In this document: positions 17,780 to 56,743 of the stretch, one piece after another
Layout of the letters: every line of letters begins with the position of its first letter
Position numbering within the stretch: position 1 is the first letter of the stretch
Source of the DNA: Clavaria fumosa
Lineage: Eukaryota > Basidiomycota > Agaricomycetes > Agaricales > Clavariaceae
Length of the DNA stretch: 64,000 nucleotides
Direction of reading: 5' to 3'
Assembly: GCA_951802425.1 (NCBI GenBank)
Contig: OX637803.1
Span: forward strand, 3,038,001-3,102,000
The notes under the pieces: model-generated
Databases searched by the model: none
What the model was told of the DNA's origin: nothing
Seen by the model: only the letters and a program-made list of their open reading frames with translations
Made by a program: the position numbers and the translations under genes

Positions 17780-18030
17780 GTGTCATTGTTGCTGTGCTAG
17801 CGGTAATGCAACCGCTAACTCAAGCGGACATTTGATTACTCTTTTTAGCCGTATGACTTTCTTTTTCCATGGCTCAGTCTTGACTACGACTGAGCTGTGA
17901 GTAACCTGCATTCTATTCCGCATTTCACATCTTCTGACGAATTAGAGTAGAATACAGATCACTTTAGGTATTACTACAGACAGTCTTTACTACGACCGAG
18001 CTAATACAGATCACTTTAGTTATTTCTACA
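17780..18030 (+). repeat. Copia 3' LTR
   Basis: Partner of 3666-3915; starts TGTCATTG and ends TTTCTACA against the TGGCC duplication at 18,031-18,035. The purine tract GAGGGGGAG precedes it. Confidence 0.95.
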
Positions 18031-18210
18031 TGGCCCAAGTATCCTCTTCCTCACTTCCATCACTTGTACTTCTAGACTCTCTGCTTCAGTTAACTTCCCC
18101 TGTTTCCTGTATGTGGCTGCCAGATTGGCAATACTTGACAAAGTATCAGGGTGTTCTGGCCCAAGTATCCTCTTCCTCACTTCCATCACTTGTACTTCTA
18201 GACTCTCTGC
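18031..18210 (-). pseudogene. NLR gene piece 2: stranded TPR units
   Basis: On the minus strand this encodes about 1.4 TPR units (ESLEVQVMEVRKRILGPEHP and the following LSSIANLAATYRKQGKL), nearly identical to units at 46-49.7 kb. Its upstream edge (18,204-18,210, TCTCTGC) is one copy of the duplication flanking the giant element; its downstream edge is the copia TSD. Removing both insertions gives one continuous frame with pieces 1 and 3. It has no promoter or start of its own. Confidence 0.9.
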
Positions 18211-18249
18211 CACCCCCTTCAGCACACCCACCCCCTATCCAAAAGGCCT

Positions 18250-19240
18250 AGCCAATTTTGACTGATGCCCTTTTTATAGGCCCAGCCAATCGTCGGCCGA
18301 GATATAGTCATATAGGCTCGGCCGATCAACTCGATATACCAAAGTCATGTTATACATACACAGATCTCATGGTACTAATGATGCCCTTTCAAAAGAGCTA
18401 GCCAATGAACATTTTAGGAACCAGTGAAGAGGGCCTGAAGCACCCTATTCAAAACACTTCTCTCCTTACATGACAAATAATATCAAAGAGGCTGGGGATG
18501 AAGCATATATAGAGTTTATGAAGCAATAGATCAGATATGCTATTTGATAGGAACATAAATTACAAGGTCATCATCATCTGAGACTGCATTAGTGTTAAAT
18601 GAGACTATACACCTTAATACAGCAGGGTGAAATCAAAACCAATATGCCTTATAATAGGCTTCCAATAGGTTGGAGCAAACTCAACCTCCAAACATGCAAT
18701 AGAGCCACTGTGAACTTAGGATGAAATGTGGTCTGTCAACTGAATCAGGAACGTTGCAAGATGATGTTCTTTAGAAAAGGATGGACCTTTTGAATACCAT
18801 GCAGCAAGCACTGTCTAGAACCTGATATGCATTTGAATAGACTAAAAAATGGTTAGTTTAGATGGCAAATTTGGACATAAAATTGAGCCATTATGATCTG
18901 TAATTGAATGTGGCAAGTGATGCAGGCAGTATCATTATTTGTTATTCCACAATTCATCATAAAAGGCCCCAAATATGCCATCCATCAGGGCATACTCCTT
19001 GTGATTATCTGGTATCTCTTAAAAAGGGCTAAACTATTGCACTACATGAGCACAGATTACAAAGAATTATTAGAATCTGGAGAGACTGACATCCTGCACA
19101 ATATGCACATTTAGATATTCCATGCTATGAATATGATCCATACTGAATAAAGATATGCTTCACTGTCTTATTGGGAGATGATTGTCAAACAGCTGTAAAA
19201 TGGAACCTGTTCACATTTTACTGCACTACTGAGATCTATT
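18250..19240. other. Subterminal non-coding region of the left arm
   Basis: About 990 bp between the element tip and the 3' end of the accessory gene. It is AT-rich, with short frames only (such as 18,908-19,114). The same sequence occurs inverted at 45,019-46,009. Confidence 0.5.
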
Positions 19241-19241
19241 T

Positions 19242-21208
19242 TCAACCATTCCTCCTTGGTCGCAGTACCTGTTTCTTTGCATCCATGGAGGCCCTCTGTC
19301 TGGCCCTGGTCCTATATAGTGACTTGGACCTTTCCTCATCCTTTTCACCCCCCACCCATCTCCTTTTCTGTAGGCTGGGTTCTGCCTCATTATGGATCTC
19401 AACTACCACATGAGTGGCAGGATGATCACCACTTTCTACCCCAACCCCCTCAGCACCATCACACTGTTCAATATCCACCTTCTTCCACAGACTGGATTCT
19501 TCTGCATCAGTGGTTGGGGGAACAGAAGCATTGACCCTATCATCATCCCCATCATCACTCTGCCCATCATTATCTGACTCCTGTGAGCCAGATTCCTCAC
19601 TTTATACAATTAAAAAGTGCATTGATGATAATGATGACATGAAAACACTCACTCAGTACTGATATAGACACAATCTTCTTGTGCCTTCCCCTTCTTGAGA
19701 GACAGCCTCTTCACCCTGTTGTCAGATGACAATGAAGGTTCTTCTTCAGATCCTTGGTGATGGCTGACCAGTGGCCTTGATGCCTTCCCTCTTAGATGCT
19801 GTGGAAGGACATGCTGAAACCGGAATATCTTTTGGCCAAGCGTCTGACGATGACAGAGAAAATCACAGAGGTGCCTGACATCCACATAGTGCATTTTTGA
19901 AGGCTCCCGGATCTGCAAGCCATCTGGAAGATATTCCTTTGCAATGAATTTGTGTGGCTGATCAGCTATCAGAAGCCAAGGAACAGCAACCTTCTTGTTT
20001 TTGGTTGTGTTGCCTGTATTTTTAAGGCTTTATTTCAAAAATGGACTAAAATGAGGTGCAAGAGAGACATACGATAAGTGATGGTCAAAAATGACCTCAA
20101 GATTTCTTTCAGTTGGGGCAATGGTAGATTCAGTTCCAAAGGGAGAACAGGCCATCCCTCATCATCAGTGGGCAGATTCCATGGTACGCTGGCATCTGTT
20201 TGCTTTTTTGAAAGCATCTCCTCCTGATCAATGTGATGCCCCCTTCCTCCCTCATCTGAATCCCTGTTAGTAAAATTTGCAACTGTGGCTCAGGATGATT
20301 GCTTACCATTCCATGTCTCAGCCAGATACTTATCCCACTCCTGCCAAACCTCAACTCCAACCTTATTGAATTGATCCTTGAAGCTACCAGTCACAGGCCC
20401 AGGAGTCTGAATCCTAGAGCAGGATTGTATTAATTAAATAGTTGCGTAGGCAGATCTCTGAGACCCACTTTGCCTTCTTGATATTTCCCCTTTCATCTTG
20501 CCAGCCAGCCAACATAAAGACTTCAGCACCCATCTGTTCCTTTGCAAATCGCGCAAAGTTGAGAGCCTGCTGCATGAACTTGCTTGAAGCCAATCTTCCA
20601 GAAGAGGCTGAGCCACTGTGGTTGATAGGGCAACAATTGAGACACTGACTCTCTCTGCACCTTGACTGGAACAGGCTCTGCGTTCCATTTACCCACCAAT
20701 GCCAAGTATTGTTGATGGTCCTGCTGGCTTAGGCTGTTGCAAATCTCAGTCCTAGCACGACGGTATGAGCCAAGGAATTGGGCTGATCCTCTTTCAGCAT
20801 TCGACAGCTCCTCTGCCCTGTTGTTGATTTTCTCCTTCTCGTGATGTTCCACAATGCTTTGGAGGGTCCACCTCTTTCTGTTGCTGAACTGGAGCCCTTG
20901 GTAGTAATCACCTCCTGAATCAGAAGAGCCTTCTTCTCTGGCCACAGATCTACGATTGTTATGTAGCCAGTTGCGAATTTTCTAGGATGACACAAAATCA
21001 AAAATCAAGCAAGGAGATGGGTAAAATGGTTCTATGTTACTGTGGTTAGGTCATCTGGAATGTTCTTGTGATCATTCTGGGCTGCATCCCTGATTTTCGC
21101 TTTGATTTCTTTGACAATACGTGCTCTGCCTTTTGAGTTTGCTTCTTTGTAGCCTGCAAGGCTGTCTGTGAGTATCTTGGTATATTCTTGGGTGGTCCAA
21201 CGTGTCAT
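19242..21208 (-). CDS. KDZ-element accessory protein (left copy)
   Basis: Starting at the ATG at 21,208 (MTRWTTQEYTKIL), coding blocks separated by short introns can be followed to a TGA at 19,242-19,244. They include KIRNWLHNNRR; FLGSYRRARTEICNSL with a downstream tryptophan (LVGKWN); MQQALNFARFAKEQMGAEVF; VPWNLPTDDEGWPVLP; VPWLLIADQPHKFIAKEYLP; and a Ser/Asp/Glu-rich tail. An upstream in-frame ATG at 21,379 exists but lies in the divergent promoter. The Trp/Arg/Lys-rich helical block (around residues 80-160) could be the divergent HMG-like domain reported for KDZ-linked genes; I infer this from position and composition only. It is divergent to the Ulp1 gene. A near-identical inverted copy lies at 43,051-45,017. 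Confidence 0.7.
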
Positions 21209-21402
21209 TTTCCAAGCTGGTGGGGTTGTTTCAGCAGTGAAATAGTGGGGATCAAATGTCGAAAGAGAAGCGGCGTGTGTCACGTGAGGAGGCAAAGCGC
21301 AACTTGCTTCACGTGAGTCTGTGACATTGTAACACCTGGGATCCCAACTGTTACTGTCACATTTGTGACCAATACTCACGTACTGTGACTTGCGCGTCAG
21401 TT
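21209..21402. promoter_or_regulatory. Divergent promoter of accessory gene and Ulp1 gene
   Basis: A 194-bp region between divergent starts. It contains two TCACGTGA palindromes (21,280-21,287 and 21,309-21,316) and the palindrome-centred motif TGGGATCCCAACTGTTAC (21,337-21,354), followed by TGTCACATTTG. The same motif occurs in the same orientation upstream of the JmjC-like gene (41,045-41,062), and inverted in the right arm (42,905-42,922). Confidence 0.5.
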
Positions 21403-23188
21403 ATGTCTTCACCACTCATCCTTCCTTGTTCTGCTGTTCGTGTGGGTCAAAAGGTCAGCCGCCCAGACTCTCTGGTTGCTTCACTTCAAGTCCAGGGGGC
21501 CATGTAAGCTTTCCTGCTCTTGATCTCTATGCAGGGCCACTGCTGCTTCGACTTGTTCAACTAACTGGTTTGTGGAAGGGCCACAATGACTTTGACAGGA
21601 GTTGGATTCCCACAGGTAATGCTGCGCTTGGAAAGGGATGCATATGCATGTAAAGTCAGTCTTCACAAGCCGCTACATTTCAACTGCTGATGATATTAGA
21701 TGAGCCACCCAGATATGAAAGGGCATCACATCGTAATGCTTTTGGATGTGAATCTTGTTCGCCCAATGCAATCGCATGTGTCAAATTTCTTGGGAAAGAC
21801 TGAAGAAGGTATGTACCCTATGCACCTTTTCCTGTCATGATCTAAAAATAATATGTCTAGGACATGCATTCTTTCAGCAACTCCATCTGCTGTTTGATCA
21901 AGACTCCAATTACTGGAGTAGGCAACAGTATGAGGCTTTTGTTCTGTCTGTGAAAGCAAACTTTCCTGGAGACTCATGGGGATTCATGGAGTATGTAGTC
22001 TGCATGATAAGCTAAATTCAAGTGTCAATAATGTCATAAGGGCCGAGGAATCAGCCAACACATGGTCTGAAAACAAAATACCTGGGTACACAACACACTC
22101 CAAGGAGCAATTCAGATTGACAATGTTTCCCCATCACAGTGAAGCAACTCAAAAACCATTGCATACTCCAATTGAAATGGACAGCAATGAGCTCCAGCGG
22201 CTTGAGGATGGACAATGGATAAGTGGAGACATTGTCAACTTTGCTCTTCAGTATGTCTATCAATATTTAAAACGTTCACTTCTCATATTACACAGGGACA
22301 CCTACAGCCATCTGAAACCAGGTGCGACAGGAATATGGCTGGCAAATACATATTTCTTGCCAATACTGAAGTAATTTCTTCTTCTATACTCAAAAAAGTG
22401 TTTCTGAAAGCTGATATACTGTGAGAAGAAGTGATGGTTCTGAGAAGGTTATGTCATGGCTGCCGGAATCTGCTGTCAAATGCAAATACTGGATCATTCC
22501 AGGGTTCAGCCATGAATTGTAAGCGACTGTATCTTTTAATCTGTTTAAATTGCTTACATCTTAAAGGAAACATTGGTTTACATTAATCGTAGCAAATCCA
22601 AGTTATTGTTTCATAACTGATCGTCCAAATGGCAATGGGGAATGGTGAATGTATTTCACCGCCTTTATTTTCTTACCAACACCCTTGCAGTACCATCATC
22701 ATCCTTGACAGCCATTTTGTCAACCGGGTACATTCCAAAGATGAAACAGCAATCCAAGGCCTCTTAAAGGACCTTGGGATAGAACAGGGTTCCAAGCACT
22801 TCAAGAACCCAAAGGTCATTCAGCCAAAAGTTCGTAGCAAATTTTAACTAAGAGGTGGCTACACTTTTTCACTTTTTTGTTTAGGTTCCAAAGCAGAGCA
22901 ATGGGAATGACTGTGGAGTATATGCAATTCATTTCGCATGGCTGTGGTTGCTTGAAGCCGACAGGTTAATGCATGTGGTTCTGGTGATTGAATATTTCTT
23001 TTGTGCTGTCTTGCATTGAATTCGACATCCATCAGAATGCCCCTAGGTCTCAGAAAGACATTGACAGGGTATGGAAGTGCTGGAGGATTCCAGGTCTTCG
23101 GCAAAAGTTGCGTGAAGAGGTCCTCACAAGTGCAGAGAGGGGCTGGTTTAAGCAGCAAAAAGAAACACACATGTCTGGTGCTATCTAG
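21403..23188 (+). CDS. Ulp1/SENP-type SUMO protease of the KDZ element
   Basis: Probable start at the ATG 21,403, with many short introns; the exact 5' exon chain is uncertain between 21,490 and 22,020. The catalytic region is clear: DGQWISGDIVNFALQYV (entry region, near 22,210), HWFTLIVANPSYC (His, near 22,570), IIILDSHF (Asp, near 22,700) and the SNGNDCGVYAIHFAWLW block (Gln-loop/Cys, near 22,890), with a C-terminal exon ending at TAG 23,186-23,188. This is the C48 cysteine-protease pattern, which cleaves SUMO from proteins. SUMO proteases are recurrent companions of large eukaryotic DNA transposons. The left arm ends inside this gene (22,200), so only this copy has the catalytic exons. Confidence 0.8.
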
Positions 23189-23349: not shown

Positions 23350-26300
23350 ATGGCAAACTCAAAACGAAAGGAACATGCCCAGGAGGTTGAACTTGTTCCA
23401 GTTTACAACAAACGGTTGCGGAAATCATTTATGACGTCACGCAATGTTCAGAAGCACTCTGCTCAATCGCACAATGCTTCGGAGAGCAAAATTCAGTCCA
23501 CAGCATTTTCCAGCGATTGCCTACCCCCCAAACCACTTCACAACAATGCGAAGCAGACTCTGCCTTTTACATTCAACGCAGATGGTGAGCCTGAAGACTT
23601 CCAGAATTTTGATACCCAGCAGCTTCCCAAAAAGAAGAGACGAGGAAAGGTGAGTGAGAACTTTAGGTTTCCACAGCCAATGTTCATGAGTATTCACATG
23701 CTCAGACTCAGAATGAATTCCTTGAGGAATGGCTTCCCTTAAGACCCACCTACATGAGAGAAATCTTGGGATTAGAAGCTCCACCCCCTTCCAATATTTG
23801 CCAGGTTTGCAATCAGGAGAACTTCAGGTTTCGATGTCGTGACTGTTTTTATCGGCCTGTGACCTGCCATGCATGCTGTGCCAAATCCCATGCTGAAACT
23901 CCTTTCCATTCAATTGATGTATGGAATGGGGTATGCTTCCTGCCATCTGATCTCTTGCATGTTGGACTTGCGATCTACTTGGGTCACCAAGGCTCCCCCT
24001 GTCCAGAATACAAAGAGGAAGAGGAAAATGATCAATTGGAGCAAGATACAGATAATAACTCCAACTCGAATACATTGGGTGCACATCTGCTTCTAATTGT
24101 TCACTCTAATGGAGTGTGCCAATGGAGCATACATTACTGCCACTGCTCAAATGCCCCTTCCCACCATATACAGCTGCTTCAACATCGTCTCTTCCCTGCC
24201 AGCTACAAGAAACCTCAGACTGCTTTCACATTTGAAGTCCTCAATCGCTTCCACATTGAAGCTATGGAATGCAAAACCTCAGCAGGCACCTTTTACTCCA
24301 AGCTAAAGAGATTTACCTCTAATGCTTTTCCAGACACTGTGCCAGCAAGTGTACTTTTTTTTGTTTGTCCATTGTACTGACAAGCTGGGCTGACATTAGG
24401 ATCGATACCGCGAATTGTTGAGAGTATCTCGTCAATGGCGAGACTTGACAAATAGAAAGCGATTTGGCTTTGGCCATGACTTGGATAGGGATGCAGGAAA
24501 TGGCGATCTAGCATTATTCTGCCCCGCTTGCCCACAGCCTGGCATTAATCTTCCCAATGACTGGAGAAGTCAACCAGATCAGTAAGTCTCATTTTCGCTG
24601 AGTACATGTAAACACTTATGACCAAATGCCAGATGGTTTTTTCGGAGATCCATAGTTGTTGATGGAAATTTCTCAGCAGAGCACTTGAAGATGCGAACAG
24701 CAGAGAAAGACGTTAGGTTAGCAAATGGAGAGGGATATATTGTGGAGGATGCAAACTATCAAAAGCATCTGTCCGAGGGCTTTGAGGTTCGAGATGTAGG
24801 TGTCTGACAAGAACTGGTCAACACAGATTAACTCCCGTAACAGAAATCAAACTGCTCTAATCACAGAGCCATAAGCCAGTCAAATGCTCACTCAGGTCAT
24901 CTGGAAGCCACTGGGATAGGGGCATGTGCTTGCTCCCGACATGGCTGCTTTGTACCACATTCTGTGGTTGATTTCCAGAAGGGGGAGCGGTAAGTCATAA
25001 ATGTATGCACTTTCGCATTTATTCAAAAACATTTTATGCTTCTTTCCCAGCCACATCAACATTGACTATGCAATTTGCCAGGCTATCAAATACAGGACAG
25101 AAGGGATGACAGAGACTCTAGTCATCTACGACATCTGTTGTCAGTGGATTCGCAATTTCAACAAAAGAGTCCAAGCAAGCCAGTATTTGTCCTTGCCCCC
25201 TTCAACAACAATCATACCTGCAGTGGGCAAGTTCCATCTGGGGGCACATATTCATTCCTGTTTTCCACTCTTCTCCTTAAACTTTGTTCATGGTGCAGGC
25301 CAACAAGATGGAGAGATTTTGGAGACTCTGTGGTCAAACCTGAACAAGGTCTCCAGCAGCATCCGGGCCATGAGCAAGGCACATCGCCACGAAGTATTGG
25401 ATGACTATATGCGAGACTCAAACTGGAAGAAGATGGTGGGGATTGGTGAGCATCTCAGATTTTCTAGCACTGTGTTCTTCTATTTTACTAAATGCTAAAT
25501 TTAGTGAAGGCACTCTCTGCGAAGTTCAAGGCTGCAACAGAAAGTCTTCAACATACCAAAGTTGCATTTGATGATTTGAATAGTGACATCCAACCTGAAA
25601 TAAGAGAAAAATGGATGAATTCAGAACAGATTGCTTTGGAATCTCGTGGGGAATACCTGAAGATATATGACATACAATTGGAAAAGAGTAAGTTTTTATA
25701 CACCTCAGAACTGGAGATAGAAATCTGAAATTGTCAATGTGAAGCACCATCTCTTGCAGACATCCGGTTAACTCTTTCAGCTAGGGAGAAGGCAACTGGA
25801 TTACCTTCTGGCATTATCTCATTCATGACCCAAGGTATGGATCTTGAATGGACTCAGTGAGTGACATGCAGGTTGCAACCAAACCTACAAGCATACTAAT
25901 GAGACCTTTAGACGTTCGGTTAACTCATTCCAGAAGAAGAAACTAACAGTGGCGCAGAAACAAAACATTATTGATCGACAGAATGCACTTCAATCCAAAA
26001 TTGAAGACTTCAACCAACGAGTCTATGCTGTTCTGGGAGAATTTGAGTGGGATAATCAGGAGATTGTTCCAGAAGACAATGATGGAAAGGAAACACAAGA
26101 TGACTATCAAGACAGTGATGAGGATGACCTAGATGCAGATGACTTTGGTGTGGACAACCAGAAATGCATACAGACCAGGCTCTGGATGCCTTCTACTTTT
26201 GGCCATGATTTCTGCCTAAAAAATGGATGGGGCAACATCATGGATCAAGAAATTCAGTTGCGAATAGTGCAGGCAGAGGAGTCACTCGAAGGGCTCAGGC

Positions 26301-30053: not shown

Positions 30054-30075
30054 TCGGTTCCACCGCAACAGGGGG

Positions 30076-30545
30076 CTCCCGACCTGCGGCGGTCAGTCAC
30101 GGCTGACGCGGTGTCCGCTCGTTGTTTGATACTGGGGGCTCACAGCCCGGGCGCTGTGGTGCGTCCGGGCTCCCGACCTTCGGCGGTCGGTTACGACTGA
30201 CATGGTGTCCGCTCGTTGTTGATACTGGGGGCTCATAGCCCGGGCGCTGCGGCGCATCTGGGCTCCCGACCTTCGGCGGTCGGTCACGACTGAAGTGGTT
30301 TCCACTCGTCGTTTGATACTGGGGGGTCACAGCCCGGGTGCTGCGGCGCGTCCGGGCTCCCGACCTTCGGTGGTCGGTCACGACTGAAGTGGTTTCCACT
30401 CGTCGTTTGATACTGGGGGCTCATAGCCCAGGCGCTGCGGCGTGTCCGGGCTCCCGACCTTCGGCGGTCGGTTACAACTGACGCGGTGTCCGCTCGTTGT
30501 TTGATACTGGGGGCCCCCGACCTTCAGCGGTTGGTCGCGGCCAAC
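30076..30545. repeat. 94-bp minisatellite, five copies
   Basis: Units beginning CTCCCGACCTTCGGCGGTCG start at 30,076, 30,170, 30,263, 30,357 and 30,451 (spacing 93-94 bp). They are GC-rich, and each contains the inverted motif CGACCTTCGGCGGTCG. No consistent open frame. Confidence 0.9.
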
Positions 30546-30774
30546 GCGTTTCTCGCTTGCCGTTCAAGACTGCGGCCGATACGGTTCCTGCTAGCTGCTC
30601 AAGACTGGCTCAAGACTGGAGGCTTAGGCAGTAAGTGGATTGCCGTTTCAGATCTTTCCCTACTGACGGACCTCACCTCAGGCCAGCAACCAGCCCCGCT
30701 TCACCTGGCAACCTTTTTTTTACCTTGCCGTCTCGTATTCTGTAGCGATAGCAAATGTATTACATAGGGATCAT

Positions 30775-31028: not shown

Positions 31029-32706
31029 ATGGCAAGAACTAAGCAGAATCCGAAGAAGACAACCAGCGGTCACTCGATCAGGGCGCGACTAAGGCTCCCA
31101 ACCCGCAGTAAGCTCAGCCCCCAAATTTCAAGGGACAAACCCACGCCGGTAAGCCTAAGCCGTCGTGCACCTACGCCCAGCACTGATTATGCCAACAGAA
31201 GGTAGACACCGCCAGGAACGATAGGGTTTGTAAAGATTTTAAATTATTGCTTAACAATTCATCCTGATCTTTGCTGTGATCCTACTACAGTGGTGTTCTG
31301 GCTGTGGTAACGGCGGCGATTCAATCGACTGCGATTTCTGCGAAAGAACGATCTGTAACGAATGCTTCCAGATTCCCTGCGGGGAAGCTGCTATAGCAAG
31401 ACAAGAAGTCAAGTTCAAATGTCCTGCCTGCCACATCTCATCTGAAAACCGCAAAAACCCCTACGAGGTAGAGCGCGTCTTAGATTCCACCTACTCAGCC
31501 TTTTTTTACAACAACATTTTAAAGCCCCTCTATCTCCGGGGAAAGCCAATGAAGGACTTGATTGGCTGGATCAAGGCCCCCACTCTTCGCGGCAACTACG
31601 CGTGCCAAAACACCAACTCCCTCACGATGGTCAACATTCGCCTTTCCAACATCCCTCGCAGGGGTGATCTGTTCTATTCTGTTGCCAACAACGTCGGGGG
31701 TTGGTTCACCGACACCTCCAACGGACAAGAACTCCTCGAATGCGACATAACACTTGATGTCAATCCCGAGGATGGCAAATCGCTTGAAATGCACCAAGCA
31801 ATCCTACGGGGCTTCGTAGGAAAACTTCGAGGGTAATTTTTTACATTATTGCACATACATAATACTAACAGCCTTTGCAGTTTGGGTGTGCAATGCCTAA
31901 TCGTCTTTTTATACACCCATTCAAATCCTGATAACGGAGATTTGCACTGTGCTCCTGGCGTCGGATTGGAGATTGGTCAGGTACAGCCTTAGTTGGATTT
32001 TATGGCTTTTTTATCTGATGGCTCTTAGTTCTTGGAAGAAATTATCGGTGCAGATGTAAAATTGTTTGCAAAGGAATCGCACTCAACCCTGGTTATGCTG
32101 GTCTGTGGCCAAGTCTGGGAGATTCCTGAGGCAACTCAGGCAATCAAAACATATGCCAAAAGGTGAGTCCGCTGCCATATACTCAGACATTCAATTAAAA
32201 AAAACAGTGAATCCTTCAACTGGATTGTTGGCTTTGGCCAACCGAATTTCTACCCGCACCTGGCCGCGCCGTTTCTGATGAAGCTCACGGTCAAAACTTA
32301 CATCAAATGTTTCTCAATCAGCAGGATCGTCCCCGATTTACTCAAGGAGGAAGAAGGCCTTGGGGCGCACACCTCACTTATAACTCTCAGCCCCAGCTTT
32401 GGGCTCGAATTCTTCTGGTGCCACAAGACCCTCCGCCCTCTCGGCAAGCTCATTCCGCTTCAGTGCCCGAAATGCGCTGTCCTTCGCTCAATGACGTTCA
32501 CTACGGTTGGCCAGAGGGCAGGCATGTACAAGGCTTTCTGCCCTTGTGGATTTACTGTTGAGAAGGATACGAAGATTGCCGATGCTACGCTGCCCCAGGC
32601 AGCTGATGGAAGTGTTATTGGCTGGGGTTCGCGCCTTTGGTTTGGCAGCCCTGCAGCTGCAAGCAAGGCTTGGAATGCTCCCCGCAACGCATACAACGTC
32701 TCGTAA
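31029..32706 (+). CDS. Zinc-finger protein with an N-terminal histone H3-tail mimic
   Basis: The ATG at 31,029 has a good context (AACATGG). Introns 31,149-31,290, 31,833-31,880, 31,981-32,028 and 32,163-32,207 are all GT...AG and leave one open frame to TAA 32,704-32,706 (about 420 residues). The first residues are MARTKQNPKKTTSG; aligned without gaps to H3 they match A1 R2 T3 K4 Q5, K9, T11, G13, R17, L20, K27 and P30. Exon 2 opens with a PHD/RING-like cluster (CSGCGNGGDSIDCDFCERTI ... CNEC ... CPACH), and near the C-terminus is a zinc ribbon (CPKC ... CPCGF). The middle part (FLEEIIGADVKLF ... NWIVGFGQPNFYPHL) is unknown to me. It sits between the KDZ transposase and the dioxygenase cargo. 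It could attract or titrate readers and writers of H3K4/K9/K27 marks; that is inference. Confidence 0.7.
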
Positions 32707-34564: not shown

Positions 34565-35919
34565 CTATGTTTTTTGGCTATAAATGCCCTGCGTCATCCA
34601 CCCAACGGCATCCTTTCCAAAATGTCTGAGAACTGCCTTCCTCATAAACATGGCGTAACATATGCAATCCCCTTCTCCCTAGCTGTCAACTTCATGTGTG
34701 AGCAAGTTGGCACAAAATGCCACAACTGTGCCGCTTGGATAATGAAGGTCTAGCCCAAGCTCCTTTAAATGCAGTGTGGCGTTTGAATAGCTGCCGACGG
34801 TGGTAAGCACATCATACCAAGCATGGCTTCCGTTTCTGTCAATGTGAGGCTTTGTTAACTGATTTGCCATGACGGAAATTCCAGTAAAGACGGAGGACCA
34901 AAGGGACGCCTTGTGATTCGTGAGCTCATCTTCTCTGAGTCTTGCCAATATCTCCTTTCCAGCCTGGTAAAGTTCTGGATGGGTAAGCTCCAGGACATCA
35001 TTCAAAATAGCCATAACTGCTTGAGAAGAGAGCAACCACAGCTCAGCTTCTTCGCTACTTAAGCTCACAGAGGGCTTCAGGGGCCATTTTTCTGTCTAAA
35101 GACCATGGGTTAATAATGAGGGCTAGGTGTAACAGTAAACCTGACCCAAATACCATGGCCTTGAGCAAACCATCCAGCTGAATAGGTCTCGACACCTGTT
35201 GGAAAGCTTCTGCTTGGATGGGCTTCTGCAAAATTGTTGGGGTCTTTCCTCCAGGAGACCTTGTTGTCTGCATGTGACGCTTTTACTTGCAAAGACATCT
35301 TCTTGGCAATATGGTGCGTTGATCTGAAGAGCTCCGCCTTCATGGATAAGGCTTTAGATATATCAGCCTTATAAAAGATTTAAAGATTTACCTGGCGATG
35401 AGGCAGCAGCAATCCTGGAAGATACCAGAGGATGATACGGCCTTTGCAGTCCACTACAGTGGCAGGCTGATCGGTGTGTCCCAACTTGGGGACTGGAAAT
35501 TTCGATCTTGAGTCATTTGAGGCAGAAGCATACTCTTCAATATCCCAGTCAAGGTAATCTATTCCTGGGCTCAGATGGGATAGGAGATGAATAAATGAGC
35601 TTACAGGCGTTGAGAAATGCAGATGCAATGACTTTCAGCAGCCTCCTTCGATCCTCTTGAGCTGGGGTACGATTTCGAGGACGTTTTTTTTTTCATTTTT
35701 GCTGACCTTTTGGAAATGGCTGCTATCCCTGCTGACGTCGTCAGATTTGAAAATGTAGAGAACAAGGACGTTATACTTGAATGGTGAAGGTAGGGCCTTG
35801 CTTGGGGACTGGTTTTGTAGCCTATACAAAAACTGCTCTTGAATGGAGAAAGCCTCCTCTGTTATTTTCATTCTTTTTTGGCATCTAGGAAGATCCCCAT
35901 CTGAACATATGTGATTCAT
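34565..35919 (-). pseudogene. Decayed TET/JBP-like 2OG-Fe(II) dioxygenase
   Basis: Minus-strand exons run from an ATG at 35,919 through WDIEEYASASND and VDCKGRIILWYLPGLLLPHR to the catalytic exon (about 35,090-34,565). That exon holds the iron ligands H-x-D (TKPHIDRNG) and distal His (LLTHEV), with LKELGLDLHYPSGTVVAFC between, the arrangement of the expanded basidiomycete TET/JBP group, which oxidises methylated pyrimidines. A TAG at 34,679-34,681 stands where Trp is expected two residues past HEV, and TGC (34,664-34,666) encodes Cys where the family has the 2OG-binding Arg (G-D-R-I-C-Y). Both fit single C-to-T type changes. One upstream splice junction also yields a stop. The assignment to TET/JBP rather than another 2OG family rests on motif recall. 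Confidence 0.65.
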
Positions 35920-36933: not shown

Positions 36934-39900
36934 TTACTCCAAGAAAGATTTCTCAGAAAATGACATGCTGTCGTTTTGAGAGTGTGGCCTTTTAGGACGC
37001 AGGTCTGGCTCAGATTCGTCATCTCCCGCTCCACTGGCATCTTCGTCTTGCTCCTCTCCAGATGTCTGTGCATAGACTGGGTCGTTCAACAAATCTTGGA
37101 GCTCTGTCCAGACCTGAGACTCATCGCGGGGAAAGATATGGAACTTCGGGCCGTTCCAAATGAACCAGTGGCATTTGCTCGGATCGTCATTGAGAAGTTG
37201 CTCGAAGGAATGTAGAAGATCCTGCCATTCCTTGCGGATGTGGTCAAGAACAGCTGCGGTCACCTGTTTCGTCGTAATTGTAAGCGGCGCCTTCTCTTCC
37301 CATCTCTTCATGTAGAAACAGAGCGCGGCGCCGAATTGAATGAGCGATCTGTTGAAGAGATAACAAGGGTTTACCCCTTGATCTCCAATCTCCAAGACAT
37401 ATTGGCAGTTAAACCAGCTTTGAAAAATACGGTATCGCCACATCGCAGCATTTCGTTCTTCAAGAACCTCTGGATGAGATTTCTTGCCAGAGTGTTTTAG
37501 ACTGAGCGCCGTCGCAAACTCAAGCATATTTCCGACCATTATGACATCCAAGAGACCCTCTTGAGTTGTGACATCAGGAATGTGGGCAACTGTATCACTA
37601 AAGGCTAAAAACAATCTCAGATGGAATACTTTGCAATACAACAGGAAATACCATATTTTGATGCGCCACTGACGTAGTGCTCAACCCAGATGGCCATCAT
37701 CCTACTCAGGTATGTGCCTGTTGACTTGAGGTCCTGATTTGTGATGACCGGGTTAAGCACAAATGTGTGCAGGGTTGAAGCGCAGGTCAGAGCCATAGTC
37801 GATGCGGAGTAGAAATGCCGGCTGTAGACTATCATTGGCTCTGGACCAAGTACAAAGTGAAGTGTTCCAGGTTGCATGAAGCTGTTGGATTCTCAGTAAA
37901 TGAAGCATGTGGGAATTGCTGTGACTTACAAAACATCCCCTGTCTTCAAATGGATTGCCTCTGCCTGCAGAAACCCTTTCCCTGTGCTACAGGCACCCCA
38001 GCTGAGAGGGAAGGCATGCGTCGAAAAGATGTCACCATGGTGATCTTCCTTCTCTACATTTTCATGGCGACGTATCACCGCCCACCATTTCGAGCCTGAC
38101 ATGATAGTCGAAATGACTGCAAGACCAGAATCGTCAATGTGTGGCATGCTCATGGTACCACCAGTTGAAGCAAGTCCCCAAATCAGGTCCTCCTTGTCAG
38201 CTCGATTGCTGATGAAGCCATCCACTTTGCAAGTTTGATGATGAGCCCACTCGTGGGTTGCAAGAGCGCTGATTTGAGTGTATATCAGTCAAAATGTCAT
38301 GTCGATGCAGGGGTGGACATGCCTGAAGCGAGGTGGTGGGGGGAGACTGAGGTGGCCCATCGGGAAATCCAGGCCGTTTAAAATGCGACATTTTCCCTCA
38401 TCCCGCGTTGACTCCAGAAGGTCAGTGAGAGTACCAGTACGGAGGAGGTTTACGTCTGGGTCCTTGCGCATCTCTGCAACTGCAGAAGATGAATTAGAAG
38501 GATCACCTGAAGTACTATGCGTGACTCACCTTGGAAGACACATTTCTGGTGTAATGGGCCCAAAGTCGACAACCCCTCCTCATCAAAGTTCAAAGGTGTC
38601 ATGGGTGTGTTTGTGACCAGGATGTGACGGTGGCGGAAGATCTGTTGGACCTCTGTACTTGCCATCTTCATGAAATCTGCCCAGGATGTGACATATATGG
38701 CTGACCCCTTGGGGTCAAATATGGGGGACCTAGCAGCAGGAAAATGATGCTTGGGGACTCTATTGACATAACCTTCTTCCACCATTTCGATGATGTCACT
38801 CAACACAGGATACTCTTGGAATCCCTGCTCCATTTTGAGAGAGATCTTTGAAGAACAATATGTTTCAAACTCACTGAATCCTCTGTAGCAAAATGTTCAT
38901 ATAATGTTGGTTCATTATTGGGATTGGCATCAAACATCTTGACCTTAATCGCATGGTTCATCATCTTTATTGACATGTGAGATTAAAATGTTGGATGGTA
39001 GTCAAGACTTCACTCACCTTCGGGGGAGGTAGAGAATGTAGCTCCTCAGTCTTCTCACTGTCCTGAATGAAATATAAGATGAAATGATGCAAGGATGATC
39101 ATATTAGACATACCACTGTGAGATCAATAATAATTCGAACTGGCTTCACAGCTGACTTCTTCCCTGGAAACTTTCCCCAGCTCCTACTATTATCCTGTGG
39201 GGTCATTCCTTTCTCCTTTCTTGCTGCGGGCTCCTCATCTGACATCAACTCATCGTCGTCTTCCTTGTCTGAGGCTTGAAGTCGCAGTCTCTTCACCGCC
39301 TTTCGTACTGGATGACCAGATCGACTTTCTTCTTGGGGTTGTGGGGGCTTTTCCAAGACCTCCTCCTCTTCATTTGACTTGAATGCCAGTTCCTGTTCTG
39401 GCTCTTTCACTCCCTCACTTCCCTCAGCTGAAGCGACCCAACCCTTATCCCCATAATCTAGCATGGGAAAGATTGGCGCTTGCTCCATGGGACCAGGGTC
39501 AGGAGCAGTAATTGCGATTATGACTTTCCCTTGATCTCACATTCAGCTTTCTTCAGAGACCAAGAAAACAAAATTGCTTATGGGACTGGGAATACCAATC
39601 AATCTCAATTTCTGGACCTTGAAACTTTGTGTGTAGCTCTTGGAACTCAGCGATGAAGGTACTCAAAGCTGCTGAAGTGTCACCGGTAATGCTTGCCTGC
39701 ATGAGAGCCTTCCAGAGTGCTTTCTCCGTCAGACCCAAAAATGGTGGCTTTTCATTGCCAAGAGAAATTGCAGTCTGCGTTTCCAGCTCTGTGAACACTG
39801 TTTGATTTAAAACTGAAATGTGCTTACTGAAACTAAGTAACTGCGTCGGACTTGAAACCGTTCAAACCCTCTTGCAGACAGAGCAAAAAGAGGGGAGATG

Positions 39901-42058: not shown

Positions 42059-42856
42059 CCGCCGGAGCTCATTACCATCCATTTCAATTGGAGTAAGCAA
42101 TGGTTTTTGAGTTGCTTCACTGTGATGGGGAAACGTTGTCAATCTGAATTGCTCCTTGGAGTGTGTTGTGTACCCAGGTATTTTGTTTTCAGACCATGTG
42201 TTTGCTGATTCCTCGGCCCTTATGACATTATTGACACTTGAATTTAGCTTATCATGCAGACTACATACTCCATGAATCCCCATGAGTCTCCAGGAAAGTT
42301 TGCTTTCACAGACAGAACAAAAGCCTCATACTGTTGCCTACTCCAGTAATTGGAGTCTTGATCAAACAGCAGATGGAGTTGCTGAAAGAATGCATGTCCT
42401 AGACATATTATTTTTAGATCATGACAGGAAAAGGTGCATAGGGTACATACCTTCTTCAGTCTTTCCCAAGAAATTTGACACATGCGATTGCATTGGGCGA
42501 ACAAGATTCACATCCAAAAGCATTACGATGTGATGCCCTTTCGTATCTGGGTGGCTCATCTAATATGATCAGCAGTTGAAATGTAGCGGCTTGTGAAGAC
42601 TGACTTTACATGCATATGCATCCCTTTCCAAGCGCAGCATTACCTGTGGGAATCCAACTCCTGTCAAAGTCATTGTGGCCCTTCCACAAACCAGTTAGTT
42701 GAACAAGTCGAAGCAGCAGTGGCCCTGCATAGAGATCAAGAGCAGGAAAGCTTACATGGCCCCCTGGACTTGAAGTGAAGCAACCAGAGAGTCTGGGCGG
42801 CTGACCTTTTGACCCACACGAACAGCAAAACAAGGAAGGATGAGTGGTGAAGACAT
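42059..42856 (-). pseudogene. Truncated Ulp1-type gene (right arm)
   Basis: Inverted copy of 21,403-22,200: the 5' exons up to the IEMDGNELRR segment, after which the sequence diverges and a stop occurs at 42,011. All catalytic residues (His, Asp, Gln/Cys) lie beyond the break, so it cannot be an active protease. Confidence 0.85.
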
Positions 42857-43050
42857 AACTGATGCGCAAGTCACAGTACGTGAGTATTGGTCACAAATGT
42901 GACAGTAACAGTTGGGATCCCAGGTGTTACAATGTCACAGACTCACGTGAAGCAAGTTGCGCTTTGCCTCCTCACGTGACACACGCCGCTTCTCTTTCGA
43001 CATTTGATCCCCACTATTTCACTGCTGAAACAACCCCACCAGCTTGGAAA

Positions 43051-45017
43051 ATGACACGTTGGACCACCCAAGAATATACCAAGATACTCACAGACAGCCT
43101 TGCAGGCTACAAAGAAGCAAACTCAAAAGGCAGAGCACGTATTGTCAAAGAAATCAAAGCGAAAATCAGGGATGCAGCCCAGAATGATCACAAGAACATT
43201 CCAGATGACCTAACCACAGTAACATAGAACCATTTTACCCATCTCCTTGCTTGATTTTTGATTTTGTGTCATCCTAGAAAATTCGCAACTGGCTACATAA
43301 CAATCGTAGATCTGTGGCCAGAGAAGAAGGCTCTTCTGATTCAGGAGGTGATTACTACCAAGGGCTCCAGTTCAGCAACAGAAAGAGGTGGACCCTCCAA
43401 AGCATTGTGGAACATCACGAGAAGGAGAAAATCAACAACAGGGCAGAGGAGCTGTCGAATGCTGAAAGAGGATCAGCCCAATTCCTTGGCTCATACCGTC
43501 GTGCTAGGACTGAGATTTGCAACAGCCTAAGCCAGCAGGACCATCAACAATACTTGGCATTGGTGGGTAAATGGAACGCAGAGCCTGTTCCAGTCAAGGT
43601 GCAGAGAGAGTCAGTGTCTCAATTGTTGCCCTATCAACCACAGTGGCTCAGCCTCTTCTGGAAGATTGGCTTCAAGCAAGTTCATGCAGCAGGCTCTCAA
43701 CTTTGTGCGATTTGCAAAGGAACAGATGGGTGCTGAAGTCTTTATGTTGGCTGGCTGGCAAGATGAAAGGGGAAATATCAAGAAGGCAAAGTGGGTCTCA
43801 GAGATCTGCCTACGCAACTATTTAATTAATACAATCCTGCTCTAGGATTCAGACTCCTGGGCCTGTGACTGGTAGCTTCAAGGATCAATTCAATAAGGTT
43901 GGAGTTGAGGTTTGGCAGGAGTGGGATAAGTATCTGGCTGAGACATGGAATGGTAAGCAATCATCCTGAGCCACAGTTGCAAATTTTACTAACAGGGATT
44001 CAGATGAGGGAGGAAGGGGGCATCACATTGATCAGGAGGAGATGCTTTCAAAAAAGCAAACAGATGCCAGCGTACCATGGAATCTGCCCACTGATGATGA
44101 GGGATGGCCTGTTCTCCCTTTGGAACTGAATCTACCATTGCCCCAACTGAAAGAAATCTTGAGGTCATTTTTGACCATCACTTATCGTATGTCTCTCTTG
44201 CACCTCATTTTAGTCCATTTTTGAAATAAAGCCTTAAAAATACAGGCAACACAACCAAAAACAAGAAGGTTGCTGTTCCTTGGCTTCTGATAGCTGATCA
44301 GCCACACAAATTCATTGCAAAGGAATATCTTCCAGATGGCTTGCAGATCCGGGAGCCTTCAAAAATGCACTATGTGGATGTCAGGCACCTCTGTGATTTT
44401 CTCTGTCATCGTCAGACGCTTGGCCAAAAGATATTCCGGTTTCAGCATGTCCTTCCACAGCATCTAAGAGGGAAGGCATCAAGGCCACTGGTCAGCCATC
44501 ACCAAGGATCTGAAGAAGAACCTTCATTGTCATCTGACAACAGGGTGAAGAGGCTGTCTCTCAAGAAGGGGAAGGCACAAGAAGATTGTGTCTATATCAG
44601 TACTGAGTGAGTGTTTTCATGTCATCATTATCATCAATGCACTTTTTAATTGTATAAAGTGAGGAATCTGGCTCACAGGAGTCAGATAATGATGGGCAGA
44701 GTGATGATGGGGATGATGATAGGGTCAATGCTTCTGTTCCCCCAACCACTGATGCAGAAGAATCCAGTCTGTGGAAGAAGGTGGATATTGAACAGTGTGA
44801 TGGTGCTGAGGGGGTTGGGGTAGAAAGTGGTGATCATCCTGCCACTCATGTGGTAGTTGAGATCCATAATGAGGCAGAACCCAGCCTACAGAAAAGGAGA
44901 TGGGTGGGGGGTGAAAAGGATGAGGAAAGGTCCAAGTCACTATATAGGACCAGGGCCAGACAGAGGGCCTCCATGGATGCAAAGAAACAGGTACTGCGAC
45001 CAAGGAGGAATGGTTGA
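43051..45017 (+). CDS. KDZ-element accessory protein (right copy)
   Basis: Inverted copy of 19,242-21,208 with the same start (MTRWTTQEY) and stop (TGA 45,015-45,017) and almost identical coding blocks. One visible difference is a CpG transition in the MQQALNFARFAKEQ region (GCGCGA versus GTGCGA). Retention of two apparently intact copies, when the adjacent protease is truncated in one, suggests either recent duplication or continuing gene conversion. Function unknown; see the left copy for domain comments. Confidence 0.7.
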
Positions 45018-46007
45018 AAATAGATCTCAGTAGTGCAGTAAAATGTGAACAGGTTCCATTTTACAGCTGTTTGACAATCATCTCCCAATAAGACAGTGAA
45101 GCATATCTTTATTCAGTATGGATCATATTCATAGCATGGAATATCTAAATGTGCATATTGTGCAGGATGTCAGTCTCTCCAGATTCTAATAATTCTTTGT
45201 AATCTGTGCTCATGTAGTGCAATAGTTTAGCCCTTTTTAAGAGATACCAGATAATCACAAGGAGTATGCCCTGATGGATGGCATATTTGGGGCCTTTTAT
45301 GATGAATTGTGGAATAACAAATAATGATACTGCCTGCATCACTTGCCACATTCAATTACAGATCATAATGGCTCAATTTTATGTCCAAATTTGCCATCTA
45401 AACTAACCATTTTTTAGTCTATTCAAATGCATATCAGGTTCTAGACAGTGCTTGCTGCATGGTATTCAAAAGGTCCATCCTTTTCTAAAGAACATCATCT
45501 TGCAACGTTCCTGATTCAGTTGACAGACCACATTTCATCCTAAGTTCACAGTGGCTCTATTGCATGTTTGGAGGTTGAGTTTGCTCCAACCTATTGGAAG
45601 CCTATTATAAGGCATATTGGTTTTGATTTCACCCTGCTGTATTAAGGTGTATGGTCTCATTTAACACTAATGCAGTCTCAGATGATGATGACCTTGTAAT
45701 TTATGTTCCTATCAAATAGCATATCTGATCTATTGCTTCATAAACTCTATATATGCTTCATCCCCAGCCTCTTTGATATTATTTGTCATGTAAGGAGAGA
45801 AGTGTTTTGAATAGGGTGCTTCAGGCCCTCTTCACTGGTTCCTAAAATGTTCATTGGCTAGCTCTTTTGAAAGGGCATCATTAGTACCATGAGATCTGTG
45901 TATGTATAACATGACTTTGGTATATCGAGTTGATCGGCCGAGCCTATATGACTATATCTTGGCCGACGATTGGCTGGGCCTATAAAAAGGGCATCAGTCA
46001 AAATTCG
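45018..46007. other. Subterminal non-coding region of the right arm
   Basis: Inverted copy of 18,250-19,240; no supported gene. It differs from the left copy by isolated substitutions, including a C/G change near 46,007. Confidence 0.5.
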
Positions 46008-49000
46008 CTAGGCCTTTTGGATAGGGGGTGGGTGTGCTGAAGGGGGTGTCTCTGTTTCATCCAACTTCCCCTGATTCCAGTATGTGGCTGCCAGATTGGC
46101 AATACTTGACAAAGTATCAGGGTGTTCTGGCCCAAGTATCCTCTTCCTCACTTCCATCACTTGTACTTCTAGACTCTCTGCTTCATCCAACTTCCCCTGA
46201 TTCCTGTATGTGGCTGCCAGATGGGCAATACTTGACAAAGTATCAGGGTGTTCTGGCCCAAGTATCCTCTTCCTCACTTCCATCACTTGTACTTCTAGAC
46301 TCTCTGCTTCATCCAACTTCCCCTGATTCCTGTATGTGGCTGCCAGATGGGCAATACTTGACAAAGTATCAGGGTGTTCTGGCCCAAGTATCCTCTTCCT
46401 CACTTCCATCACTTGTACTTCTAGACTCTCTGCTTCATCCAACTTCCCCTGATTCCTGTATGTGGCTGCCAGATTGGCAATACTTGACAAAGTATCAGGG
46501 TGTTCTGGCCCAAGTATCCTCTTCCTCACTTCCATCACTTGTACTTCCAGACTCTCTGCTTCAGTTAACTTCCCCTGTTTCCTGTATGTGGCTGCCAGAT
46601 TGGAAATACTTCTGAAAGTGTCTGGGTGTTCTGGCCCAAGTATCCTCTTCCTCACTTCCATCACTTGTACTTCTAGACTCTCTGCTTCATCCAACTTCCC
46701 CTGATTCCAGTATGTGGCTGCCAGATTGGCAATACTTGACAAAGTATCAGGGTGTTCTGGCCCAAGTATCCTCTTCCTCACTTCCATCACTTGTACTTCT
46801 AGACTCTCTGCTTCATCCAACTTCCCCTGATTCCAGTATGTGGCTGCCAGATTGGCAATACTTGACAAAGTATCAGGGTGTTCTGGCCCAAGTATCCTCT
46901 TCCTCACTTCCATCACTTGTACTTCTAGACTCTCTGCTTCATCCAACTTCCCCTGATTCCTGTATGTGGCTGCCAGATTGGAAATACTTCTGAAAGTGTC
47001 TGGGTGTTCTGGCCCAAGTATCCTCTTCCTCATTTCCATCACTTGTACTTCTAGACTCTCTGCTTCATCCAACTTCCCCTGATTGTTGTATGTGGCTGCC
47101 AGATTGGCAATACTTGACAAAGTATCAGGGTGTTCTGGCCCAAGTATCCTCTTCCTCACTTCCATCACTTGTACTTCTAGACTCTCTGCTTCATCCAACT
47201 TCCCCTGATTCCAGTATGTGGCTGCCAGATTGGCAATACTTGACAAAGTATCAGGGTGTTCTGGCCCAAGTATCCTCTTCCTCACTTCCATCACTTGTAC
47301 TTCTAGACTCTCTGCTTCATCCAACTTCCCCTGATTCCTGTATGTGGCTGCCAGATGGGCAATACTTGACAAAGTATCAGGGTGTTCTGGCCCAAGTATC
47401 CTCTTCCTCACTTCCATCACTTGTACTTCTAGACTCTCTGCTTCATCCAACTTCCCCTGATTCCTGTATGTGGCTGCCAGATTGGCAATACTTGACAAAG
47501 TATCAGGGTGTTCTGGCCCAAGTATCCTCTTCCTCACTTCCATCACTTGTACTTCCAGACTCTCTGCTTCAGTTAACTTCCCCTGTTTCCTGTATGTGGC
47601 TGCCAGATTGGAAATACTTCTGAAAGTGTCTGGGTGTTCTGGCCCAAGTATCCTCTTCCTCACTTCCATCACTTGTACTTCTAGACTCTCTGCTTCATCC
47701 AACTTCCCCTGATTCCAGTATGTGGCTGCCAGATTGGCAATACTTGACAAAGTATCAGGGTGTTCTGGCCCAAGTATCCTCTTCCTCACTTCCATCACTT
47801 GTACTTCTAGACTCTCTGCTTCATCCAACTTCCCCTGATTCCTGTATGTGGCTGCCAGATGGGCAATACTTGACAAAGTATCAGGGTGTTCTGGCCCATG
47901 TATCCTCTTCCTCACTTCCATCACTTGTACTTCTAGACTCTCTGCTTCATCCAACTTCCCCTGTTTCCTGTATGTGGCTGCCAGATTGGAAATACTTCTG
48001 AAAGTGTCTGGGTGTTCTGGCCCATGTATCCTCTTCCTCACTTCCATCACTTGTACTTCTAGACTCTCTGCTTCATCCAACTTCCCCTGATTCCAGTATG
48101 TGGCTGCCAGATTGGCAATACTTGACAAAGTATCAGGGTGTTCTGGCCCAAGTATCCTCTTCCTCACTTCCATCACTTGTGCTTCTAGACTCTCTGCTTC
48201 ATCCAACTTCCCCTGATTCCTGTATGTGGCTGCCAGATGGGCAATACTTGACAAAGTATCAGGGTGTTCTGGCCCAAGTATCCTCATTCTCACTTCCATC
48301 ACTTGTACTTCTAGACTCTCTGCTTCAGTTAACTTCCCCTGTTTCCTGTATGTGGCTGCCAGATTGGAAATACTTCTGAAAGTGTCTGGGTGTTCTGGCC
48401 CATGTATCCTCTTCCTCACTTCCATCACTTGTACTTCTAGACTCTCTGCTTCATCCAACTTCCCCTGATTCCAGTATGTGGCTGCCAGATTGGCAATACT
48501 TGACAAAGTATCAGGGTGTTCTGGCCCAAGTATCCTCTTGCTCACTTCCATCACTTGTACTTCTAGACTCTCTGCTTCATCCAACTTCCCCTGATTCCTG
48601 TATATGGCTGCCAGATGGGCAATACTTGACAAAGTATCAGGGTGTTCTGGCCCATGTATCCTCTTCCTCACTTCCATCACTTGTACTTCTAGACTCTCTG
48701 CTTCATCCAACTTCCCCTGATTCCTGTATGTGGCTGCCAGATTGGAAATACTTCTGAAAGTGTCTGGGTGTTCTGGCCCAAGTATCCTCTTCCTCATTTC
48801 CATCACTTGTACTTCTAGACTCTCTGCTTCATCCAACTTCCCCTGATTCCTGTATGTGGCTGCCAGATTGGCAATACTTGACAAAGTATCAGGGTGTTCT
48901 GGCCCAAGTATCCTCTTCCTCACTTCCATCACTTGTACTTCTAGACTCTCTGCTTCAGTTAACTTCCCCTGTTTCCTGTATGTGGCTGCCAGATTGGAAA

Positions 49001-56665: not shown

Positions 56666-56743
56666 TCGGATATGGTGTAACGGTTAACATTATCGCCTCT
56701 CATTTGCTCGCGATAGCTCGGGGTTCGATTCCCCGTATCCGAA
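56666..56743 (+). tRNA. tRNA-Glu (anticodon CUC) with a 6-nt intron
   Basis: The acceptor stem TCGGATA (56,666-56,672) pairs with TATCCGA (56,736-56,742); 56,743 is the discriminator. The D-arm GTGT/ACAT encloses AACGGTTA. The anticodon stem ATCGC/GCGAT closes a loop with CTC at 56,699-56,701, provided TTTGCT (56,703-56,708) is removed as an intron directly 3' of position 37, the canonical site. The T-arm is CGGGG-TTCGATT-CCCCG. A TTTTT run (56,747-56,751) is the Pol III terminator. All stems are perfect apart from one G-T pair in the D-arm. Confidence 0.95.

Follow-up and report, generated by a model that had tools for sequence, protein, structure and literature searches.

A transposon-borne gene family of the fungus Clavaria fumosa whose products begin with a histone H3-like tail joined to a PHD/ADD-like zinc finger

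Why would a gene carried by a DNA transposon begin like histone H3? The question is raised by a gene of the basidiomycete Clavaria fumosa that lies inside a KDZ transposon and encodes an H3-like N-terminus followed by a zinc finger. It was found in a stretch of 64,000 nucleotides of contig OX637803.1, here called the window (C10:3038001-3102000 of a 48.76-Mb, 17-contig genome); coordinates given without a contig are those of the window. An original prediction, made from the letters of the window alone, proposed that the protein presents a decoy tail to the enzymes that methylate or demethylate H3 lysines. The evidence set out below makes us confident that the tail is a true H3 mimic maintained by selection.

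The tail is encoded by the first exon:

31029 to 31148, plus strand: exon 1, with the H3-like tail at codons 2 to 21 (ARTKQNPKKTTSGHSIRARL); supported by the sequence, gene model, shuffles, codon comparison, profile and tail counts

Exon 1 starts with MARTKQNPKKTTSG (in full, MARTKQNPKKTTSGHSIRARLRLPTRSKLSPQISRDKPTP), and its ATG is the first ATG in frame downstream of a stop. The opening reads as originally claimed: aligned to H3 without gaps, it is identical at 12 of 30 positions, and at 8 of 13 at the start. None of 20,000 residue shuffles scored as high (BLOSUM) over the 30 positions, and residues 6 to 30 taken alone gave a shuffle p of 0.0005. When a profile built from nine tails was compared with PDB sequences, H3 came out on top, in register over residues 1 to 17 (E 6.6e-6, among the best 60 of 133 matches), and the same search returned chain 3a1b_A, a DNMT3A-H3.1 chain by its name, in which the H3 tail is N-terminal. 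The consensus of these nine tails, set against H3 residues 1 to 20, is ARTKQTAKRSTG....R..L. A profile of the whole protein from six families also matched the H3 N-terminus in register, over residues 1 to 41 (E from 7.6e-4), and its H3 matches align only to histone residues 1 to 44 (both among the best 60 of 202 matches). A Pfam search gave no histone family for the gene product. The match to H3 beyond chance is N-terminal and in register. The three lysines originally singled out, K4, K9 and K27, are among the identities of the window copy, but K27 and P30, which are absent from the exon 1 sequences typed for families B to F, are probably matches by chance.

The tail recurs in eight diverged families (A to H, with the window gene in A) within this one genome, where 23 distinct tails were read at 40 loci. 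The family tails are MARTKQNPKKTTSG in A, MARTKQSAKRSSGA in B, MARTKQTPKKSTGG in C, MARTKQTAKTSTGS in D, MARTRQSAKRSSGA in E, MPRTKQSASRSTGA in F, MPRIKQTASRPTGT in G and MARNKQTAQRSTGG in H. Identity to A in a six-family alignment is 26 to 53%. In B, C, D, E2 and F, spliced alignment recovers the arrangement of A, with a tail exon followed by a phase-0 intron and then the downstream exons; an extra intron is predicted after the finger in B, D, E2, F and one of the two C models, and in one E copy (L054) the aligner left the tail exon unjoined. G and H were read from tail to finger only. The original prediction had made conservation of the ARTKQ start in homologues its test. An H3-like tail is kept throughout A to H, but three older A copies depart from the exact ARTKQ (two have ARTTQ and one ARTMQ), as do E (ARTRQ), F (PRTKQ), G (PRIKQ) and H (ARNKQ).

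Pattern searches of the whole genome agree with a close link between tail and finger. A degenerate MARTKQ pattern gave 31 matches against 0 in the reversed control, and a wider pattern that overlaps it gave 39 against 0. Three more patterns, designed after such tails had been read, gave 20 (MPRTKQ), 18 (MARNKQ) and 3 (MPRIKQ), each against 0, and families A, F, G and H were found without a tail pattern, via DNA or finger similarity. A tail pattern lies upstream on the same strand in 74 of 97 finger matches (55 and 19 in two sets). Conversely, 74 of 85 tail-pattern matches precede a finger. The 11 that do not are nine of 64 in the first set (the two true H3 genes, L024 with MASTKQ, L050, four MARTVQ, MARTIQ or MARTLQ places and one decayed F copy) and two of 21 in the second. 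L050 (C10:2242540) has a MARTKQ start that continues in a non-H3 reading, with no finger match nearby. The 23 finger matches that lack a tail pattern fall, by match pattern, into seven of a further family J, four C-like, one E-like and 11 others; among those read, L093 (C-like) has a decayed tail and L016 (E-like) has the tail VRTHQ.

Residues within the tail are not kept equally. Among the 23 distinct tails, Q5 is present in all, R2 in 22 (the other has a stop), R17 in 22 and T3 in 21, and position 1 is A or P in 22. The R2, T3 and Q5 counts are biased for B to E, as the motif list was drawn from tails already seen: the first three patterns (two of MARTKQ type, and MPRTKQ) fix these residues and the wider one also fixes K or R at position 9, while R17 is in no pattern. 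K4 is Lys in 16 tails and otherwise R, T, M or H; K9 is Lys in 12, Arg in 10 and Thr in one. R2, Q5 and R17 are better kept than K4 and K9.

Codon comparisons, judged from the sequences, indicate that the tail is under purifying selection over codons 2 to 14, with codons 15 to 40 changing freely. Between A and C, nonsynonymous divergence (pN) is 0.13 and synonymous divergence (pS) 0.86 in codons 2 to 14, against 0.71 and 0.83 in codons 15 to 40. For E1 and E2, codons 2 to 14 gave pS 0.87 and pN 0.07. The highest tail pN between families is 0.27 (A and B), and the weakest contrast is that of A and A5, the latter carrying a stop (pN 0.17 in the tail, 0.16 in the rest). Mean pairwise identity is 0.62 in the tail, 0.22 in the remainder of exon 1 and 0.35 to 0.48 elsewhere; in comparisons of C, the deepest family, with the others, the tail is 65% identical and other segments 14 to 38%. 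The tail window ranks 10th of 367 over all pairs, 17th of 371 for D and 2nd of 368 for C, where the sole higher window starts one residue earlier, at the Met. Going by these ranks, the tail is among the most conserved stretches of the protein, and in the deepest comparison it is the most conserved.

This pattern bears on what the tail could be for. The original reading of an H3-like N-terminus with a PHD-like cluster in a TET-bearing transposon is supported, and selection has kept the tail in diverged relatives; a role as substrate of lysine methyltransferases or demethylases is not supported as the conserved function. K4, K9 and K27 vary among the tails (K27 is not shared), and a lysine decoy as the shared function was rejected on this ground. 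Since conservation does not centre on the lysines, a decoy for methylation is improbable as a common function; the stronger conservation of R2, Q5 and R17 is more in line with a tail that serves an H3 reader as ligand.

The finger and the remainder of the protein are encoded by the following parts of the gene:

31149 to 31290, plus strand: intron 1, GT-AG, phase 0, in the gene model; an intron lies at the same place in the models of B, C, D, E2 and F
31291 to 31832, plus strand: exon 2, with the PHD/ADD-like zinc finger at 31291 to 31434 (C42 C45 C54 C57 C62 C65 C84 C87 H88), then a domain for which no relatives were found; gene model, six-family alignment, profile
31881 to 31980, plus strand: exon 3, with invariant H234 (31918 to 31920), G240 and D241; gene model, six-family alignment
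32029 to 32162, plus strand: exon 4, with invariant C280 (32104 to 32106) and G281; gene model, six-family alignment
32208 to 32706, plus strand: exon 5, conserved C-terminal domain with CxxC...CxC near the end and the stop codon at 32704 to 32706; gene model, protein searches

In all, the gene has five exons and 464 codons. The four GT-AG introns and the open frame agree with the original prediction, and the product of 464 residues replaces its estimate of about 420. Imperfect tandem repeats of about 95 nt lie directly upstream of the gene (30060 to 30560), and similar repeats lie upstream of several A copies.

A zinc cluster directly after the first intron had been predicted, and a PHD-like cluster is indeed joined to the tail. 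Eight zinc ligands in PHD/ADD spacing are invariant in the six aligned families. In the search of PDB sequences with the six-family profile, the finger matched CHD4 (E 3.4e-7) and the ATRX ADD (1.9e-6), and further PHF12, AIRE (PHD1), RCO1, PHF21A and TRIM24. The fingers of ATRX, CHD4, AIRE, PHF21A and TRIM24 read the H3 N-terminus, and they share with the finger described here the spacing C-x2-C-x8-C-x2-C-x4-C-x2-C-...-C-x2-C(H) and a GG..CD.C core. At the fifth ligand the finger agrees with the ATRX ADD in having Cys, whereas the classic PHD finger has His. In contrast to the fingers of known readers, this one is preceded by its own H3-like tail, and its binding to H3 is a prediction.

The C-terminal half found no relative in Pfam or PDB sequence searches. 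Nevertheless, six families with identities as low as 26% all share H234, G240, D241, C280 and G281, the His and the Cys being 46 positions apart, and the same residues are invariant again in a seven-row alignment of the C-terminal part. The invariant His...Gly-Asp and Cys-Gly suggest that this module may be an enzyme.

The gene is a recurrent cargo of KDZ transposons. The genome has 64 Tet_JBP and 185 KDZ matches. A KDZ or TET match lies within 10 kb of 46 of the 55 family loci (A to F), against a mean of 3.8 and a maximum of 11 in 1000 random draws, and within 5 kb of 40 of the 55, against a random mean of 2.0; the distances use 150 of the 185 KDZ matches, most F positions are exon-5 places, and the draws estimate the size of C8, exclude contigs C14 to C17 and ignore transposon clustering. 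Protein searches returned 1, 26 and 2 relatives. As the 26 are metagenome relatives (17 to 91% identity where given), the family, judged by sequence similarity, is not confined to this genome. The protein relatives read for a tail (P0002-P0020, P0029, P0030) are all fragments without exon 1, and no relative was confirmed in viral and genome contig collections. Among the matches listed in the literature search there was no description of the family, or of a transposon-borne H3-tail mimic with an H3-reader-type finger.

What, then, could an H3 tail do on such a protein? We tentatively prefer, at a little short of an even balance, the explanation that the tail is a built-in ligand of a reader of the H3 N-terminus, foremost the protein's own finger. 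The KDZ cargo gene would make a chromatin protein of four parts. Its N-terminus is the H3-tail mimic, presumably starting with Ala1 or Pro1 once the Met is removed; next come a variable linker (about 20 residues) and the PHD/ADD-like finger, a type known to read the H3 N-terminus; the C-terminal module is conserved and has the invariant His...Gly-Asp...Cys-Gly, a zinc-ribbon-like end and no fold match. The tail would cap the finger in cis or join molecules head to tail. Nucleosomal H3 tails could then displace the mimic, or the mimic could displace H3 tails from host readers, and the C-terminal module would thereby act on the element's own chromatin beside its TET/JBP enzyme, countering silencing. 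The own finger would be the simplest partner, with host readers next. PHD fingers read the end of H3 that contains the kept residues R2, Q5 and, mostly, A1 or P1 and T3. Somewhat less probable is the wider proposal that KDZ transposons carry a family of fusions of H3 mimic and H3 reader as a standard second anti-silencing tool beside TET, serving as a self-recognising switch or scaffold and impersonating nucleosome tails to block or recruit host readers at their own copies.

Several observations count against the tail being a ligand of the finger. R17 and the hydrophobic-R-hydrophobic-x-L pattern at 16 to 20 fall beyond the stretch that PHD fingers usually contact, which leaves part of the constraint on the tail to another cause, and the counts for R2, T3 and Q5 carry the bias described above. 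The Pfam PHD family matched four of six members below threshold (best E 0.019), and the best Pfam match has an unrelated name, CK_II_beta (E 0.013, below its cut-off). AlphaFold models of window exons 2 to 5 (pLDDT 39) and of the relative P0002 (pLDDT 54) were too poor to use, and docking of tail to finger found no support in these two models, neither of which contains the tail. Of nine A-family copies read with the window gene model, two are fully open (the window copy and that on C3, at 99%), and the other seven have stops, frame breaks or truncation. Finally, in family J the one copy read (L091) has no H3-like start in the 468 nt upstream of its finger, and J may be a tail-less form of the gene:

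C1:3257018, C2:1116801, C2:2607187, C5:1122349, C7:1278469, C10:2470923 and C6:471312, strand not given: seven finger matches of family J, mostly near family B

The best surviving alternative, which we regard as possible though rather unlikely, is that the tail acts in trans by titrating or recruiting host binders of the H3 N-terminus, whether writers of the COMPASS or Suv39 type, demethylases, readers of K4me0 or pockets of the WDR5 type. It amounts to the original idea, widened from lysine enzymes to any binder of the H3 tail. The tail matches H3 in register and, as in H3, occupies the extreme N-terminus (22 of 23 tails start with A or P), and its gene accompanies TET/JBP in mobile elements. 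There is also a precedent: through its PHD finger, UHRF1 recognises VRTK at the N-terminus of PAF15 as it does ARTK of H3, according to the part of PMC12704277 consulted. However, 11 of 23 tails have R or T at position 9, 7 of 23 lack the Lys at position 4 and K27 is unshared, so baiting of methyltransferases is unlikely as a common function. Moreover, a pure decoy would need no finger, yet the loci of the family couple the tail to one of the H3-reader-like type.

An improbable alternative is that the C-terminal part is a caspase/CHAT-like cysteine peptidase, with the tail as a pseudosubstrate or prodomain that mimics its substrate, and that the active protein clips H3 tails. The five invariant residues would agree with this, a weak feature when taken alone, and the His-Cys spacing resembles that of clan CD. 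Neither Pfam nor PDB sequences support a peptidase, and a fold search with the P0002 model, which is poor and misses the His strand, gave nothing below E 0.18 (for the fold work P0029 and P0030 were dropped for misplaced alignment, P0013, P0015 and P0017 were left out, and P0020-P0028 were unused). The caspase/CHAT assignment was rejected as the principal one for lack of profile or fold support and is kept as a rival.

Slightly less probable still is a chance likeness, in which a basic nuclear-localisation or DNA-binding segment happens to resemble H3. The tail is rich in Lys and Arg, and basic N-termini often look alike. Against this stand the shuffle tests, the in-register match from residue 1 and the top place of H3 in the tail-only profile search; R2, T3 and Q5 are kept while lysines change (the patterns fixed these three for B to E only), which is the opposite of what charge alone would predict. 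That exon 1 is a disused relic captured from a host H3 gene is very improbable: the first intron of both host H3 genes read (L033, L044) lies at about codon 13 to 14, near the end of the strongest similarity, and breaks or truncation affect seven of the nine A copies read, but codons 2 to 14 are under purifying selection despite high synonymous divergence between families.

Returning to the tail as a ligand of an H3 reader, each half of the proposal has parallels. Histone mimics are known in G9a, SNAG-domain proteins, influenza NS1 and EZHIP; in contrast to these, the similarity described here spans to residue 13 and includes R17 and L20. To our knowledge, none of them travels in a transposon or forms a fusion with an H3-reading finger. 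In PDB 3a1b, a laboratory construct, an H3 tail likewise stands N-terminal to the DNMT3A ADD domain, whereas the arrangement here is natural and recurrent. Like PAF15, the protein copies part of H3; the PAF15 peptide binds an H3 reader (PMC12704277, consulted in part), and binding here is predicted. For the TET cargo of TET+ Kyakuja/KDZ transposons, an anti-silencing role has been proposed (PMC12730594, consulted in part). The portion consulted describes no histone-mimic gene, and a term search of its main text found neither 'PHD' nor 'zinc finger'.

Anti-silencing proteins of transposons and proteins that mimic histone tails are thus both known already. The matches listed in the literature search included no mobile-element family in which a conserved H3-tail mimic precedes a finger of the H3-reader type. 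Within one genome, selection has kept the H3 copy in diverged relatives, suggesting imitation of chromatin by these elements as a way to cope with silencing. The internal replication (eight families and tens of copies in one genome) makes R2, Q5 and R17 directly testable, and the family offers a fungal system for the contest between mobile DNA and chromatin readers.

The element that carries the window gene is delimited by its terminal repeats and flanks, and its other parts are as follows:

18211 to 46048, strand not assigned: KDZ element of 27,838 bp with termini CACCCCC...GGGGGTG
18211 to 22200, plus strand: left terminal inverted repeat (TIR), mismatched with the right arm at 15 of 3990 nt
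42059 to 46048, minus strand: right TIR, pairing with the left arm
23667 to 24377, plus strand: transposase exon with the CxC2 cysteine cluster (PF18803, E 1.8e-28)
25001 to 25495, plus strand: KDZ transposase exon (PF18758, E 1.6e-30)
34640 to 35095, minus strand: TET/JBP dioxygenase gene fragment (PF12851, E 5.5e-19 for 34682 to 35095; genome match C10:3072640-3073086)

KDZ and its TET genes were reportedly named by Iyer and colleagues. The TET-like gene of the original prediction is confirmed by its PF12851 match; the window copy has one in-frame TAG, and five higher-scoring copies in the genome have none. The JmjC-like gene, by contrast, was rejected: the frame at 38453 to 38896 has no Pfam family at E 0.01 and a single PDB match at E 0.29. 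The minus strand of 36937 to 38896 holds open frames of 248, 120 and 148 residues without a Pfam family, and for two of these frames PDB likewise gave no relative.

TET+ Kyakuja/KDZ DNA transposons of Agaricomycetes are described, in the part of PMC12730594 consulted, with a KDZ transposase, TET/JBP cargo, CA..TG ends and a 7-bp target-site duplication. The element shares the KDZ transposase, here with a CxC cluster, the TET/JBP cargo and the CA..TG termini; its flanks TCTCTGC (18204 to 18210) and TCTCTGT (46049 to 46055) form a possible 7-bp duplication with a 6/7 match. The same source, as far as seen, states that two Laccaria families, Kyakuja-1/2_LB, have no TIRs. The element has TIRs of about 4 kb and is therefore classed as KDZ, not Kyakuja.

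A 126-bp repeat, present in about 30 tandem copies (46049 to 49750, also 17952 to 18251), forms the array in which the element is inserted; this array lies inside a minus-strand open frame of 1746 codons (46008 to 51248). Further along the window, a tRNA gene (Rfam RF00005) is found on the plus strand at 56666 to 56743.
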